Of a stretch of 64,000 nucleotides of DNA, positions 12,772 to 18,714 are shown piece after piece (within the stretch, counting starts at the first letter, position 1; each line of letters starts with the position of its first letter). Position numbers and translations under genes: made by a program. This stretch comes from Synechococcus sp. BO 8801. GTDB lineage: Bacteria > Cyanobacteriota > Cyanobacteriia > PCC-6307 > Cyanobiaceae. The notes below the pieces were generated by a model. That model searched no databases. It saw nothing but the letters and a program-made list of their open reading frames with translations, and was not told the DNA's origin. The stretch is from assembly GCF_002252675.1 (NCBI RefSeq), contig NZ_NQKY01000001.1, positions 79,315 to 143,314 of the forward strand, written 5' to 3'.

Positions 12772-13502
12772 CCGGCCGCCAGCACGATGCCGGCGCAGGC
12801 CTCGGCATCGGAGAGGGCATCGTGGTGCTGGAGCGGCAGACCCAGATGCCGGCACACATCCGGCAGCCTGGTGGGCCGCAGATTCCAGGCCTGCCGGGCC
12901 ACCTGCACGGTGCAGACGAAGGGCTGGGCCGGGGGGCGCAGGCCGGCCTGCTCGCAGCAGGCCCGCAGCACACCGGCATCGAAGCTGGCGTTGTGGGCGG
13001 CGATGAACTGCGCCCCATCCAGGCAGGCCGCCAGCTGGGGCCAGAGCTCGGCGAAGCTGGGCGCATCGGCCACCTGCGACCAGCTGATCCCGTGGATGGA
13101 CGTGAACAGGAACGTTCGGCGCGGCGGCCGGATCAGGTGGTGCTCGCGGCGCACGATCTGGCGCCCCTCCACCCGCACCAGGGCGATCGAGCAGGCACTG
13201 TCGCGGCCCTGATCAGCCGTCTCGAAATCCAGCGCCACGAAGCAACCCTGGGGACCATCCACCAGGCCAGCGCCGATCGCCGGCGCGGCAGTGGGCCGGT
13301 ATCGGGACAGGGCGGCTTCGGCGCTGCGCAGAAAGCGCCGCTCGTCGCGGTCAAGGTTCGCGGCACCCCAACGGCTGCGGTAGGCCCACAGTCGTTTGTA
13401 GCGACGCACATCCTGCTCGGCCCAGCCCGCCTCTCGGAGTTCTTCGCTGCGGCACGGGTTCTCCATCGGCATGACGGGCGGAGTTCTCCCGATCCTGCTC
13501 AC
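12735..13502 (-). CDS. DnaQ-like 3'-5' exonuclease (DEDDh)
   Basis: Exonuclease III fold related to the DNA polymerase III epsilon subunit. Catalytic DEDDh residues are visible: Asp92 and Glu94 in ALDFETAD, Asp175 in AHNASFDAG, and His227 with Asp232 in HDALSDAEA. An N-terminal 85-residue basic extension precedes the nuclease. The start is uncertain: GTG 13502 overlaps the TGA of the upstream autotransporter gene, and two in-frame ATGs lie 10 and 12 codons downstream. Role (repair, proofreading or RNA trimming) cannot be decided. Confidence 0.85.
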   Translation of the reverse strand: MSRIGRTPPVMPMENPCRSEELREAGWAEQDVRRYKRLWAYRSRWGAANLDRDERRFLRSAEAALSRYRPTAAPAIGAGLVDGPQGCFVALDFETADQGRDSACSIALVRVEGRQIVRREHHLIRPPRRTFLFTSIHGISWSQVADAPSFAELWPQLAACLDGAQFIAAHNASFDAGVLRACCEQAGLRPPAQPFVCTVQVARQAWNLRPTRLPDVCRHLGLPLQHHDALSDAEACAGIVLAAGQEVTAGLARSR

Positions 13503-16500
13503 TGAAGGCCGCGACTGGTCGGAGCGACGGGTTCGGATGGCACAGGTACGGGTGTCTCCAGGGCCGGTGCGGCAACGGTCCCGCCCTTGGCGACGGCCGC
13601 CCGGGGCGGCCCACCGAAGCGCCAGCGCAGTCCGGCGCCGTAGCTGAGTTCATCGACGTTGCTTCGGAAGGAGCCGGCCACCCCGGCGTAGAGGGAGAAC
13701 TGGTCGGAGGTTTCCAGTTCCACGTTCAGACCGACGGTCAGGTCGTCGGCACCGCGGTTCTGGCCCAGCACCTCGATCGCTCCCAGGGCCGGGACCTCCG
13801 CGAAGGAGGCCGTCAGCTGCTGCTCCTGATCGGGATGGGTGCCCCCGTAGGTGTCATACGCGTAGCCCAGCGAGAGCCGTGGGATCAGGCGGGTGCTGCT
13901 GCTCAGCTGCAGCGGGGTTTCCAGGGTGAAGCCGATGCCGAAGACAAGGGAATCGGCGCTGTGACCATCGACGCTCAGATTGAGCGACTGGGCGCCCGAT
14001 TCGGAGAAGCCCCCCTGGTTGTAACGGCTGTAGGCCACCGTGGCGTTAGGCCTGAGCCGGACGGCGTTGCGATCGGCCTTGTCCGCCGAGAGGATCCAGT
14101 CGTATTCGGCCTGCAGGGCCGTGGTGAAGCCCGTACCGCCAAAGCTGGCGGTGGCGATGCGGTCAAGGCTGCCGAAGTTGATGCTGCGGTTGGCGCTGGA
14201 CTGGAAGTTGGTGTAACCGACCATTCCCTTGATCTTCCAGGGTTTGGATGGTCGGTAGAGGCCCCAGAGGCTGCCGCTGTAGGTGTCCGAGCTGATGGAG
14301 GCGTTGGCATACTGAATGTTGTAGAGATTCGCCTGGCCATAGCCGAAGTTGGCTCCCACGCTCCATTGCCTGGAGACGTCGTACTGGAGGCCGTAGCTGC
14401 TCTGGAAGATGTTGTAGTCGAGGGAGGACAGATCGTTGGTGCCGGTCATGCTCGCCTGGGTGTTGGTGGCATCGATCAGCAGCGACCAGCGGCTGGCCTG
14501 GGGGATCTTCAGGGGCTGGCAGTCCAGGGGCCGTGGATCGCGGTCGGCGGGGATCAAGGTGCCGTCCGCGGCCCGGCACACCTCCGCTTCGGTGAACAGC
14601 CGGATGGCCTGGGTGCTGTCGCCCAGGGAGAGGGTCTGGCGGCGAAACTGCTCCAGCGCCGCCAGGGCCACCGTCTGCATCGAGGCATAGGGCTCGGCGG
14701 TGATGGAGTGGAGGGCCTGGTTCAGCTGGGCCCGGTTGGGGAGGCTGTAGAGGGCTCCGTAGACCGCGATGAAATCCGGTGTGACAGCAGCCGCCAGGGC
14801 CTGGTTGCTGCTGTAGCCACTGAAGCCGCCATTGATGGTGGGGATGGCAAAACCACCCCGGAGGCCCTGGCTCGCGGCCGCGTACACCGAAGACATGCCG
14901 GCATCCAGGGCTTTGGCCGTGGGGATGCTGTTGCCATTGGGCCCGTTGGCTCCTGAGGAACCACCCACGGTCAGGTTGTATTGACAGGCAGCGGCATTGC
15001 CGGTGTTCGCCGTGCACTGCTGCAGCAGGGTGGGGATGCTTCCGGTGATGGCCTGGGTCAGGGCGCCACCCGTCGGCTTCACGGCGGCGATCGTGGCGAT
15101 TCCAGGCGGGGTGTTGGTGGGGATCACCGAGCCCGTCGGGCTGAGCTGCAGCCAGCCAAATTGAAGTTTGTCGGGATCGGCGACGGCCGTGCCATTGGCG
15201 AGCAAGGTGAAGGCCGCGTCCTCATCACGCACGAACCGGAAGCCGCTGGTTCCCACCACACCGCCGGTATCGGCAAAAAGGCCCGGGTCCCCGCCGACCG
15301 TGCCAAGTGGAACGGTCACGGCGGTGTAGACCATCCCGGGGGTGATGGGGGCTCCCTGAAAGCTCGTCAGACGCAGGTTTCCCTCCAGAAGCAGAAACTG
15401 CCCGACACCGGAGCCCGTCAGTTGCAGCAGATCGCTCTGGCCGGATCCGGCCACATCGATGGCCAGGGTGGCGGACGTGTCCTGGAGATAGGAGCCTCCG
15501 TTGATGGTCAGGGTGCCGATGCTCTGCTGACCCGGAGACACCGTGCCGAAGTTGAGGACATTGGCGCTGATGACGCCGTTGCCTCCCAGCAGCGCATTGG
15601 GTTGGATCAGCACATCCGAGGTGCTGGTGCCGTTGAGGATCAGGCTTCCGCCATTGATGAGCGTCTGTCCGGTGTGGCCCAAGGCGCCACTGAACACCTG
15701 GGTGTAGCTGCCGTCCTTGATCAGGTTGCCGCTGCCGCTGATGTCCACACTGGAGTTCCGCGTGAACGGGGCATTCAGGTTCAGCGTGAGGTTGCCGGCT
15801 CCCAGTTCGATGGCACCGGCACCACCGAGGGCCTCAATGGTCTGGTTGTTGTCCCTGAGGCGGAGGCGTCCATTGCCAAAGAGGATCAGCTCGGTGCTCG
15901 TGGGCAGGGCATTGGTGATGCCGATGTCCACGGTGGCGTTGTCCCAGATGGACGTGAGGCCCTGATAGGTGCTTTGGCCGCTGAGAAGCACAACAGCTCC
16001 GTTGGCACCCGAGTTTCTGAAGTTGATGCTGCCCTGGAGGCCGGCCTGATCCGCGAACACACCACTGAAGGTGGCGTTGTTGCCAGCGGCATCAATGGCG
16101 TTGGTGCTGGAGTCATCCAGGCTGAAATTGTTGGCCACCGTCGTGCCGGAGGCCGACACCGCCAGGGTGCCGCCCTTGAACTGGGGCAGAAGCCTGCCGG
16201 CGAGCAGGCTGGAGGTGGTGTTGATGCTGGTGCCGTTGTTACCCGGCAGGATGGGACCGGCCAGGGGCCGCGGAGCCACCACTTCCTTGGCCAGCCACGT
16301 GGTGCTGAAGTTGGACGTGCCGGTGAGGCTGTTCCAGCTTCCCCCTCGGGCATAGGACAAGTTCAGGATCGGATCCCACACAAATCCATCAAAAGGAAGC
16401 GCGCTTTCGTTGAACTGGGCAGCACTCCCTGACTGCCAGACAAAATTGGGCCCCAGGCCAGTTCCCAGGGAAGAATTGGGAAGTCCCAGCTGGTCTCCTG

Positions 16501-16882
16501 TGGCTGCCGAAAGACTCTGGGCCAGCTGAGCATTGCCGAACCAGGAACTCTGCCGGAAGTCCGTGGATCCATTGCAGCCGCTCAGGATCGTGCCAGGGGC
16601 GAAACACTGGGAGAGATCGACGGTGTAGATCGTGCCGTTGAACTTCACTTCCAGCGGTGCGGCAGCGGCCGGCTCGACCGGGCTGAGGAACGCCGAAGCC
16701 ACCAGCAGGGCCAGGGCGCCGGGGGCCGTGTCCTTGATCAGCACCTGCCAGCCCCGCCGTCGATCCGGAGCCCTCCGGTTGTCATGACTGGCACCGGGGT
16801 GCTCGATGCGTTGGCCGATGGGCTGACCGAGTTGTTCATCCTGAACGCTGGCCATCTGTCTCTGATTCCCTGCCTTTCTCAT
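13499..16882 (-). CDS. Autotransporter-type outer-membrane protein with beta-helical passenger
   Basis: An 1127-residue protein. A long N-terminal extension precedes a signal-peptide core (APGALALLVASAFLSP) ending near AAAAP at about residue 75. The passenger is Gly/Asn/Thr/Ser-rich with autotransporter-associated strand repeats (GGSLILNGT..., ...LGGNGVISANVLNFGTVSPG). About 280 C-terminal residues have the alternating aromatic pattern of a type Va beta-barrel, ending in YGAGLRWRF. Unusually, a Pro/Ala-rich tail of some 40 residues follows the last strand. Autotransporters are uncommon in cyanobacteria and composition is somewhat less GC-rich than neighbours, so transfer is possible. Function (adhesion, defence or enzyme) is not evident. 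Confidence 0.82.
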   Translation of the reverse strand: MRKAGNQRQMASVQDEQLGQPIGQRIEHPGASHDNRRAPDRRRGWQVLIKDTAPGALALLVASAFLSPVEPAAAAPLEVKFNGTIYTVDLSQCFAPGTILSGCNGSTDFRQSSWFGNAQLAQSLSAATGDQLGLPNSSLGTGLGPNFVWQSGSAAQFNESALPFDGFVWDPILNLSYARGGSWNSLTGTSNFSTTWLAKEVVAPRPLAGPILPGNNGTSINTTSSLLAGRLLPQFKGGTLAVSASGTTVANNFSLDDSSTNAIDAAGNNATFSGVFADQAGLQGSINFRNSGANGAVVLLSGQSTYQGLTSIWDNATVDIGITNALPTSTELILFGNGRLRLRDNNQTIEALGGAGAIELGAGNLTLNLNAPFTRNSSVDISGSGNLIKDGSYTQVFSGALGHTGQTLINGGSLILNGTSTSDVLIQPNALLGGNGVISANVLNFGTVSPGQQSIGTLTINGGSYLQDTSATLAIDVAGSGQSDLLQLTGSGVGQFLLLEGNLRLTSFQGAPITPGMVYTAVTVPLGTVGGDPGLFADTGGVVGTSGFRFVRDEDAAFTLLANGTAVADPDKLQFGWLQLSPTGSVIPTNTPPGIATIAAVKPTGGALTQAITGSIPTLLQQCTANTGNAAACQYNLTVGGSSGANGPNGNSIPTAKALDAGMSSVYAAASQGLRGGFAIPTINGGFSGYSSNQALAAAVTPDFIAVYGALYSLPNRAQLNQALHSITAEPYASMQTVALAALEQFRRQTLSLGDSTQAIRLFTEAEVCRAADGTLIPADRDPRPLDCQPLKIPQASRWSLLIDATNTQASMTGTNDLSSLDYNIFQSSYGLQYDVSRQWSVGANFGYGQANLYNIQYANASISSDTYSGSLWGLYRPSKPWKIKGMVGYTNFQSSANRSINFGSLDRIATASFGGTGFTTALQAEYDWILSADKADRNAVRLRPNATVAYSRYNQGGFSESGAQSLNLSVDGHSADSLVFGIGFTLETPLQLSSSTRLIPRLSLGYAYDTYGGTHPDQEQQLTASFAEVPALGAIEVLGQNRGADDLTVGLNVELETSDQFSLYAGVAGSFRSNVDELSYGAGLRWRFGGPPRAAVAKGGTVAAPALETPVPVPSEPVAPTSRGLQ

Positions 16883-17189
16883 CCGCCGTTGGCCGCTTCC
16901 GGCATCGTATCGGGGTGCGAGTTGTTCACAACTCTCGCCTGTTCGATGTGATCTTTGTTGATCTCTTGCTGCTCAAGATGTAACGAAAACGCAGGTTGTG
17001 GTTGGCTGCCCTCCAGCAGCCGTCGGCGGTGATGGCCGGGCCCGGGGCTCAGGATGCGGCGGTCTCTGGATGGGCTTGCCCCAGGGATGCCCTGCAGTGC
17101 TTTCCGTGGCGGGCGTTGGCCCGGTTGCCGCCCAGCAGCAGCGGCACCAGCAGCCTCTTCAGCCGCTCCAGGAAGCCGATCCGCCCCGC
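16883..17189. other. Intergenic region, about 305 bp
   Basis: No convincing gene. The part next to the autotransporter start (16883-17000) is A/T-richer and probably carries its promoter. The part at 17000-17189 lies downstream of the small membrane protein and contains only short reading frames without start codons or recognisable motifs. Confidence 0.5.
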
Positions 17190-17693
17190 CTACTCGACCT
17201 GCCGGACTTCGATGGTCGCGATCGGCAGGTGGTTGCTGGCTTTGCAGACGGCGGAACCCCTGCCCGTGCCGCCGTCCTTGCTCCGGCTGGTGAACGTCCA
17301 TGCGAAGGTGCGCTGCGCGCCGTCATCGCCGGTTTTCGTAAACGGGCTGGTCAGTTTGTAGCTGGCTGGATGCAGCAGCTTGTTCTTCACCAGTTGCTCG
17401 CAATCCGCCTGTTGCTCCGGCCGCCGGTCCTTCATGGCCAGCTCGGGGGAGGGTTCGTTTGAGAAGGCCAGCTTGCCGAGCAGTCCGATGGTGACGACGA
17501 GGATCAACCCCGAAGCGCCGAGCACGGCCAGGCGCCATCGCGGTGTCCCCTGGCTTCGGGGGCTCCCTTTGCGCGGGCGCCGGGCCTTGCGGTCGTTCCG
17601 GCGCGGTTGAGGCTCAGGGCGCTGGCTTGATCGGCCTTGGCTCCGGGATTGTCCCAGGCGCTTCAGCCACAGGGAGAAAGGATGATCGCTCAC
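17190..17693 (-). CDS. Single-pass membrane protein of unknown function, start codon inside a hairpin
   Basis: A 167-residue protein with a strongly basic, Arg/Ser/Pro-rich N-terminus of about 50 residues, one transmembrane helix (VLGASGLILVVTIGLLGKLAF), and an outer domain with two Cys (DCEQLV and AVCKAS). No family was recognised. It would place the basic tail in the cytoplasm. The GTG start at 17693 and its Shine-Dalgarno GGAAGG lie in the 3' arm and loop of a perfect 12-bp hairpin, suggesting translational control. The upstream gene on the same strand is the Kv-like channel, 124 bases away. Confidence 0.6.
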   Translation of the reverse strand: MSDHPFSLWLKRLGQSRSQGRSSQRPEPQPRRNDRKARRPRKGSPRSQGTPRWRLAVLGASGLILVVTIGLLGKLAFSNEPSPELAMKDRRPEQQADCEQLVKNKLLHPASYKLTSPFTKTGDDGAQRTFAWTFTSRSKDGGTGRGSAVCKASNHLPIATIEVRQVE

Positions 17694-17717
17694 GCCAGCC
17701 CTTCCGCTGGCGTGAGC
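17688..17717 (-). promoter_or_regulatory. Perfect 12-bp hairpin holding SD in the loop and start codon in the stem
   Basis: In the minus-strand RNA, arms GCUCACGCCAGC and GCUGGCGUGAGC pair perfectly around a 6-base loop GGAAGG. The loop is a good Shine-Dalgarno placed 6 bases before the GUG start (17693), and the GUG is in the 3' arm. This could block or tune initiation. It could also act as a terminator for the upstream channel gene, although only a weak pyrimidine tract follows. Confidence 0.6.
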
Positions 17718-17817
17718 TGGGGTGGACGGATGGACGGCAACGGAATGCGGCGTTTACCACGACATCACACCATAACAATGGCCTGGCACCATCACGGCGC
17801 CATCACCACGCCGTCAC

Positions 17818-18714
17818 TCAGAGTTCGGCGCCGCAGAACTTGCAGTGGCGCGCATCCGGGTCATGCCCGCCCTCGAGGCAGGCCCCGCACACCACCGGGC
17901 TGGTCTGGTCCTCCTGCGGCGGCCGCAGCACCGACAGGCCGATCTCGGCGCTGAGGATGCCCGTGGGCACGGCGATGATGCTGTAGCCGATCAGCATCAC
18001 CACCGAGGCCATGAAGCGCCCCAGCGGCGTCACCGGGGCCACGTCGCCGTAGCCCACCGTGGTGATGGTGACGCAGGCCCAGTAGATGGCCACCGGGATG
18101 CTGCGGAAGCCGTCGTTGCCGGCCTCGATCACGTACATGAAGGCGCCGATCAGGATCACCAGCGTCACCATCGCCAGCAGGAACACGGTGATCTTGCGGC
18201 GGGCGGCGATCAGGGCGCTCCAGAGGAGTTCGGCCTCCTGCAGGTAGGCCCCCAGCTTCAGCACCCGGAACACCCGCAGCAGCCGCAGCACCCGCACCAC
18301 CAGGAACAGCTGGCCGCCGCCGATCAGCAGCCCCAGGTAAGTGGGCAGGATCGCCAGCAGGTCCACCAGCCCGAAGAAGCTGGTGGCGTAGCGCCGCGGC
18401 TCGGCCACCAGCAGCAGCCGCAGCAGGTACTCGAGGCTGAACAGCAGGGTGAAGCCCCACTCCAGCCCCAGGAAGGCGGTGGCCCAGCGCTGCCGCAGCA
18501 GCGGATCGCTCTCCAGCACCACCGCCAGCACGCTGAGGGCGATGGCCAGCATCAGCAGGGCGTCGAAGGCCTTGCCGGAGGGGGTGTCCGTCTCGAGGAT
18601 GGTGCGCTCCAGCCAGGGGCGCTCGACCAGCCGCACCAGGGCCAGGGCCACGACGGCCAGGCCGCCCAGCAGGAGCGGCACCAGCAGGGGCTCCAGCAGC
18701 GGCACCTGCAGCAT
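17818..18714 (-). CDS. Voltage-gated-type K+ channel with C-terminal Cys4 zinc-ribbon-like tail
   Basis: A 298-residue six-helix channel. The S4-like helix carries regularly spaced Arg (RVLRLLRVFRVLKL), and the pore has the K+ filter TTVGYGD. After S6 the last 23 residues contain Cys276, Cys279, Cys291 and Cys294 (CGAC...CKFCG), a compact zinc-ribbon pattern in the cytoplasm. The start is two bases after the livF stop, so it may be cotranscribed with the amino acid transporter. Metal or redox sensing by the tail is inference. Confidence 0.9.
   Translation of the reverse strand: MLQVPLLEPLLVPLLLGGLAVVALALVRLVERPWLERTILETDTPSGKAFDALLMLAIALSVLAVVLESDPLLRQRWATAFLGLEWGFTLLFSLEYLLRLLLVAEPRRYATSFFGLVDLLAILPTYLGLLIGGGQLFLVVRVLRLLRVFRVLKLGAYLQEAELLWSALIAARRKITVFLLAMVTLVILIGAFMYVIEAGNDGFRSIPVAIYWACVTITTVGYGDVAPVTPLGRFMASVVMLIGYSIIAVPTGILSAEIGLSVLRPPQEDQTSPVVCGACLEGGHDPDARHCKFCGAEL

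Follow-up and report, generated by a model that had tools for sequence, protein, structure and literature searches.

In the initiation hairpin of the MS2 coat gene studied by de Smit and van Duin, the free energy of the hairpin sets the protein yield (PMC9894550). In the cyanobacterial hsp17 thermometer, the Shine-Dalgarno (SD) sequence is buried in an imperfect stem, interrupted by an internal bulge, whose apparent Tm is 46 °C (PMC4477652), and the rpsO leader is a case of an initiation region unfolded by S1 and the 30S subunit (PMC3858243). Hairpin control of this kind is already known, and the locus described here, which lies in the window (the whole stretch of 64,000 nucleotides of Synechococcus sp. 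BO 8801 DNA that was analyzed), is a putative new example of it.

The present locus and the MS2 case (PMC9894550) are alike in that a local hairpin holds the start codon together with a partial SD motif, both within the dominant fold, and in that the AUG falls in the loop region in four relatives of the source species; they differ in that the present gene is chromosomal, its SD-like motif is weak and the start of the source species lies in a very stable stem (-26 kcal/mol). The locus resembles the hsp17 thermometer (PMC4477652) in that one small hairpin, formed where a cyanobacterial gene begins, contains the start codon in its stem, but in the present case the loop carries the SD-like motif, the perfect stem remains stable above 80 °C, and the gene is not a heat-shock gene. 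The likeness to the rpsO leader (PMC3858243) would be that of a structured initiation region in need of S1-aided unfolding, the leader being pyrimidine-rich in the present case, whereas there is no known protein ligand and no pseudoknot shown here.

The start-site hairpin and its gene

The minus strand from 17717 to 17688 reads GCTCACGCCAGC-GGAAGG-GCTGGCGTGAGC. The 5' arm (17706-17717, mRNA GCUCACGCCAGC) and the 3' arm (17688-17699, mRNA GCUGGCGUGAGC) are complementary at 12 of 12 positions and enclose a 6-base apical loop, GGAAGG (17700-17705). Both the minimum free energy (MFE) and the centroid structures of the surrounding RNA consist of this hairpin, which is the dominant local fold, and the computed pairing probabilities leave the loop unpaired (p ~1). 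The perfect 12-bp stem and the loop described in the first-pass annotation were thus confirmed, as was the location of the GUG start in the 3' arm, since the GTG at 17693-17691 opens an ORF of 167 amino acids (17190-17693 including the stop, minus strand). This GTG is the sole ATG, GTG or TTG in frame after the preceding stop, and the protein similarity among orthologues starts at its position. A search of Rfam returned chance-level matches only, none of them covering the hairpin and none above the gathering score.

The gene encodes a lineage-restricted membrane protein of a freshwater picocyanobacterium (Cyanobium). In the structure model, a basic N terminus and one predicted transmembrane helix are accompanied by a well-modelled, folded alpha/beta domain at the C terminus, and two cysteines are invariant across the family. 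Comparison with Pfam and NCBIfam gave weak matches only and no family, and no convincing match was found in the PDB by sequence or by fold. Orthologues are present in 9 of the 42 genomes of the genus, the source genome included; scans of the family and the order added two distant matches only, and no homologues were found in viral contigs. An antisense ORF (17097-17462, plus strand) lies inside the small gene and was ranked above it by a codon-usage predictor, which suggests that codon usage in the small gene may be unusual.

Upstream and in the same direction lies a K+ channel gene (17818-18714, minus strand; Ion_trans/Ion_trans_2), with a zinc-ribbon-like CxxC...CxxC motif, CGACLEGGHDPDARHCKFCGAEL, as the tail of its product; the matched frame of the channel extends 60-84 nt further in some congeners. 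Downstream, at 13499-16882 (minus strand), this picocyanobacterium encodes an autotransporter-like protein of 1127 amino acids with a PF03797 beta-domain and a weak PATR repeat. A tentative -10 element, TATGGT (17769-17774, minus strand), was noted from its by-eye similarity in relatives, and it was not called in a sigma-70 scan; it would give the small gene a leader of its own of roughly 70 nt.

The loop had been taken for an ideal SD sequence, which was an overstatement. The 16S gene of the source genome ends GGATCACCTCCTAACAGG, and GGAAGG pairs weakly with this tail (CACCUCCUAA), at -6.2 kcal/mol, compared with -10.0 for the GGAGG of the orthologue in G015 and -14.0 for a full SD. The source genome makes weak use of SD motifs: SD-like motifs precede 26% of the predicted starts versus 15% of control positions, a difference that overstates the true enrichment because starts with an SD motif were favored by the predictor, and AAGG was not enriched before predicted starts of the same genome. 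SD use in cyanobacteria is reportedly reduced or debated, and SD-independent starts are reported to be less structured (PMC6847405; PMC3121790), so that a start combining strong structure with a weak SD is all the more conspicuous. Ahead of the stem, the leader is rich in pyrimidines (74% versus a mean of 53%, within the upper 7%), and given this composition S1-aided unfolding of the hairpin is possible.

To place the hairpin in its genomic background, 863 kb of the same genome were used, with 699 starts predicted by a simple codon-usage script; because this script missed the small gene itself, for which the antisense ORF scored better, the background is approximate. A first-order Markov model predicts about 0.1 perfect hairpins of at least 12 bp (loop 3-10) in 64 kb, and seven were observed in the 863 kb, so that such a hairpin is uncommon without being unique. 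Placed over a start codon, on the other hand, so perfect a stem is extreme within the sampled genome: none of the 699 predicted starts is spanned by more than 7 perfect pairs, and only 7 have an equal or lower local MFE. Opening the 30S footprint costs 30.3 kcal/mol at this start versus a genome mean of 17.0, a cost equaled or exceeded at 8 of the 699 starts.

The two arms occur together only at this site, which is therefore single copy in the genome. A covariance model built from the six stems described below gave strong matches only at those six starts among 42 congeners, and those of the weaker matches that were inspected fell within what appears to be coding sequence or at the ends of unrelated genes. 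A repeat or mobile palindrome was ruled out on these grounds. Elsewhere in the genome, a perfect 17-bp hairpin with a loop of 7 and no U-tract lies between two convergent predicted stops (contig C18, 82308-82348, within L074).

Start sites and core stem in the orthologues

The start region could be aligned in seven genomes, namely the source genome (G000) and G009, G004, G011, G012, G019 and G015; the match in G010 begins only at residue 33, and for that reason this genome says nothing for or against the stem. In G004, G011, G012 and G019 the gene starts with an ATG three codons (9 nt) upstream, in the loop region, at a position that reads AGG in the source genome, G009 and G015. In G015 the ATG coincides with the GTG of the source genome. 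All of these genomes except G015 have in common, at identical register, a stem of 7 bp that closes a 10-nt loop; in the source genome its 5' side (17708-17714) pairs with 17691-17697. The core stem is CACGCCA/TGGCGTG in the source genome and CAGGCCA/TGGCCTG in G004, and the 5' side reads CAGGCCA or CAGACCA in the relatives.

The outer pairs of the 12-bp stem are present in the source species only. Both stem substitutions of the sister genome G009 break pairs, leaving nine, and single pairs are broken in G011, G012 and G019. The stem is absent from G015, which folds differently, and from G016, which has low structure. Start-opening costs of the orthologues, 16-24 kcal/mol, are ordinary for the distribution in this GC-rich genome. 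The strong lock is thus a trait of the source species, and what the relatives have in common with it is no more than a modest stem.

Over six orthologues, the core stem was the best of 1919 possible 7-bp stems, with 39 of 42 cells paired, and without the source genome and its sister G009 the core pairs were kept in 25 of the 28 cells of the four remaining genomes, tied for first. Pairing of 25/28 at the fixed site was reached in 0 of 3000 column shuffles; an equally good stem anywhere in the region was obtained in 933 of 3000. The core pairing was lost when the partner was shifted by 1-3 columns. Two core pairs changed on both sides (C-G/G-C and G-C/A-U), and one further pair becomes G-U. The C-G/G-C pair contains the CTG-GTG substitution (in either direction) that marks the new start, and the change is compensated in the non-coding arm. 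Under a null keeping the taxon pattern of each column, the joint probability of the pairing and the double changes was P ~0.034, and the shuffle control gave 14-17 of 500; the covariation draws on six to seven informative, related sequences and about two events. The covariation in the core stem is suggestive, not strong. The search for conservation and covariation that the first-pass annotation had proposed therefore gave a divided answer, with a core stem in six orthologues and two compensated pairs (p ~0.03) on the one side and the stemless G015 and G016 on the other.

Proposed role of the hairpin and rival explanations

Taken in outline, the RNA-level control first suggested for this locus is supported by the stem on the start codon in six orthologues, by some covariation and by an opening cost of ~30 versus 17 kcal/mol, but its specific forms, a thermometer, a terminator and coupling to the upstream channel, were not supported. 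With regard to temperature, the computed MFE of the hairpin, -25.9 kcal/mol at 37 °C, weakens to -20.8 at 50 °C but is still -9.1 at 80 °C, so that temperature control by this perfect stem is implausible; neither an SD in a marginal, imperfect stem nor melting at physiological temperature was found, and an RNA thermometer of the hsp17, ROSE or fourU type was ruled out by the stability. The 124-nt gap between the channel and the small gene holds no conserved coupling feature; one orthologue has a far longer gap, and in another the two genes are apart, so that coupling to the channel mRNA found no support in the form proposed.

It is highly improbable that the hairpin serves as a terminator or 3'-end stabilizer of the channel mRNA. 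It is stable and GC-rich, it stands 100 nt past the channel stop, and U-less hairpins are known at other gene ends in the genus, but the U-tract that should directly follow the GC-rich stem of an intrinsic terminator is lacking on both strands (minus tail GAUCAUCCUUUC, plus tail UGGGGUGG), and a terminator scan found none here. Moreover, in the ten genomes that have the channel and not the small gene (G001, G002, G003, G005, G013, G014, G025, G031, G032 and G040), the longest perfect stem that follows the first stop within 300 nt has 5-7 bp and bears no relation to this hairpin, and in G004, G011 and G016 it is another stem, near the channel stop, that ranks as the strongest downstream of the channel. 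The hairpin tracks the small gene, not the K+ channel, and the conserved stem holds its register with the start codon. As a separate observation, a hairpin without a U-tract, CCTCAGRCCA...TGGCCTGAGG, is conserved in G011, G004 and G015 (L103, 1001-1031; L104 and L105, reverse complement, about 1001-1031) where two convergent genes meet, at the stop codon, which suggests that U-less hairpins occur at gene ends in this genus.

The main rival is that an ancestral short stem was passed on by sequence conservation, its 3' arm being coding, and that the extra pairs arose by drift and have no regulatory role, an explanation that we consider possible but doubtful. It would agree with the occurrence of 12-bp stems by chance at the frequencies given above, with the breaking of pairs by both stem changes in G009, with covariation at only p ~0.03 and with orthologue start regions that are no more structured than average genes. 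Nevertheless, it does not readily account for pairing that keeps its register, at a site fixed beforehand, in four diverged orthologues and that no shuffle reached, for compensated pairs of which one lies at the substitution creating the GUG, or for the fact that no other of the 699 starts has a perfect stem of more than 7 bp. Compensatory changes would also be expected if the element were a DNA palindrome that lies past the promoter and is bound by a dimeric transcription factor, and a perfect 12-6-12 inverted repeat does lie between the putative promoter and the gene; this explanation appears the least probable of all, given a single copy in the genome, no common sequence motif beyond the short core, one pair retained only as G-U, which is an RNA pair, and poorly palindromic relatives.

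A possible leader ORF (17690-17740, minus strand, tentative) starts with TTG, has 16 codons and ends in a stop that overlaps the GUG as GUGA. Ribosomes translating it from 17740 might melt the hairpin and pass to the GUG, so that the main gene would depend on the leader. In agreement with such coupling, 7/7 alignable genomes have an out-of-frame leader ORF, initiated with TTG or ATG, that reaches the start and stops there or just beyond it, with the stop/start overlap GUGA in the source genome and G009 and AUGA in G015. However, such ORFs precede 17% of comparable genes by chance, TTG starts are rare (27 of 699 predicted starts), the leader ORF has no SD and the leader frames differ among the orthologues, and we regard the coupling as unlikely. 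The substitutions in the leader ORF are mostly non-synonymous and give no sign of protein-level constraint, and a leader peptide under selection at the protein level was ruled out by them. Very improbable, too, is the fuller scheme of a leader-coupled, hairpin-locked switch in Cyanobium, in which the initiation codon would have moved 9 nt from an AUG in the loop to a GUG in the stem with compensatory pairing, and leader ribosomes would open the stem.

The explanation that we prefer, with a probability of about 0.5, is that of a cis-acting mRNA hairpin over the start of the small lineage-restricted membrane protein, which would limit initiation by burying the start region. The best reading of the aligned sequences is that the core start-site hairpin has been modestly conserved in the relatives and strengthened in the source species. 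In the relatives, a 7-bp stem carries the AUG in a loop of roughly 10 nt; in the source species, the start would have shifted 9 nt downstream to the GUG, now within the 3' arm, the former AUG would have become AGG inside the weak SD-like loop, and the stem would have been lengthened to 12 perfect pairs. Given 12 perfect pairs and a GUG within the 3' arm, the start is expected to be hardly accessible if neither 30S/S1 nor a ribosome reading the leader opens it. As relatives retain it in weaker form, the hairpin most likely limits the amount of protein, and we infer both lowered translation and selective maintenance of the stem. Alternatively, so stable a hairpin may simply make a poorly expressed gene.

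The hairpin leaves the picture of bacterial translational control unchanged. If the explanation that we prefer is real, these orthologous starts would form a small natural series in which the start codon shifts within one retained hairpin, in bacteria that use SD sequences little, and such a series would allow a direct test of the trade-off between stem stability and start position.
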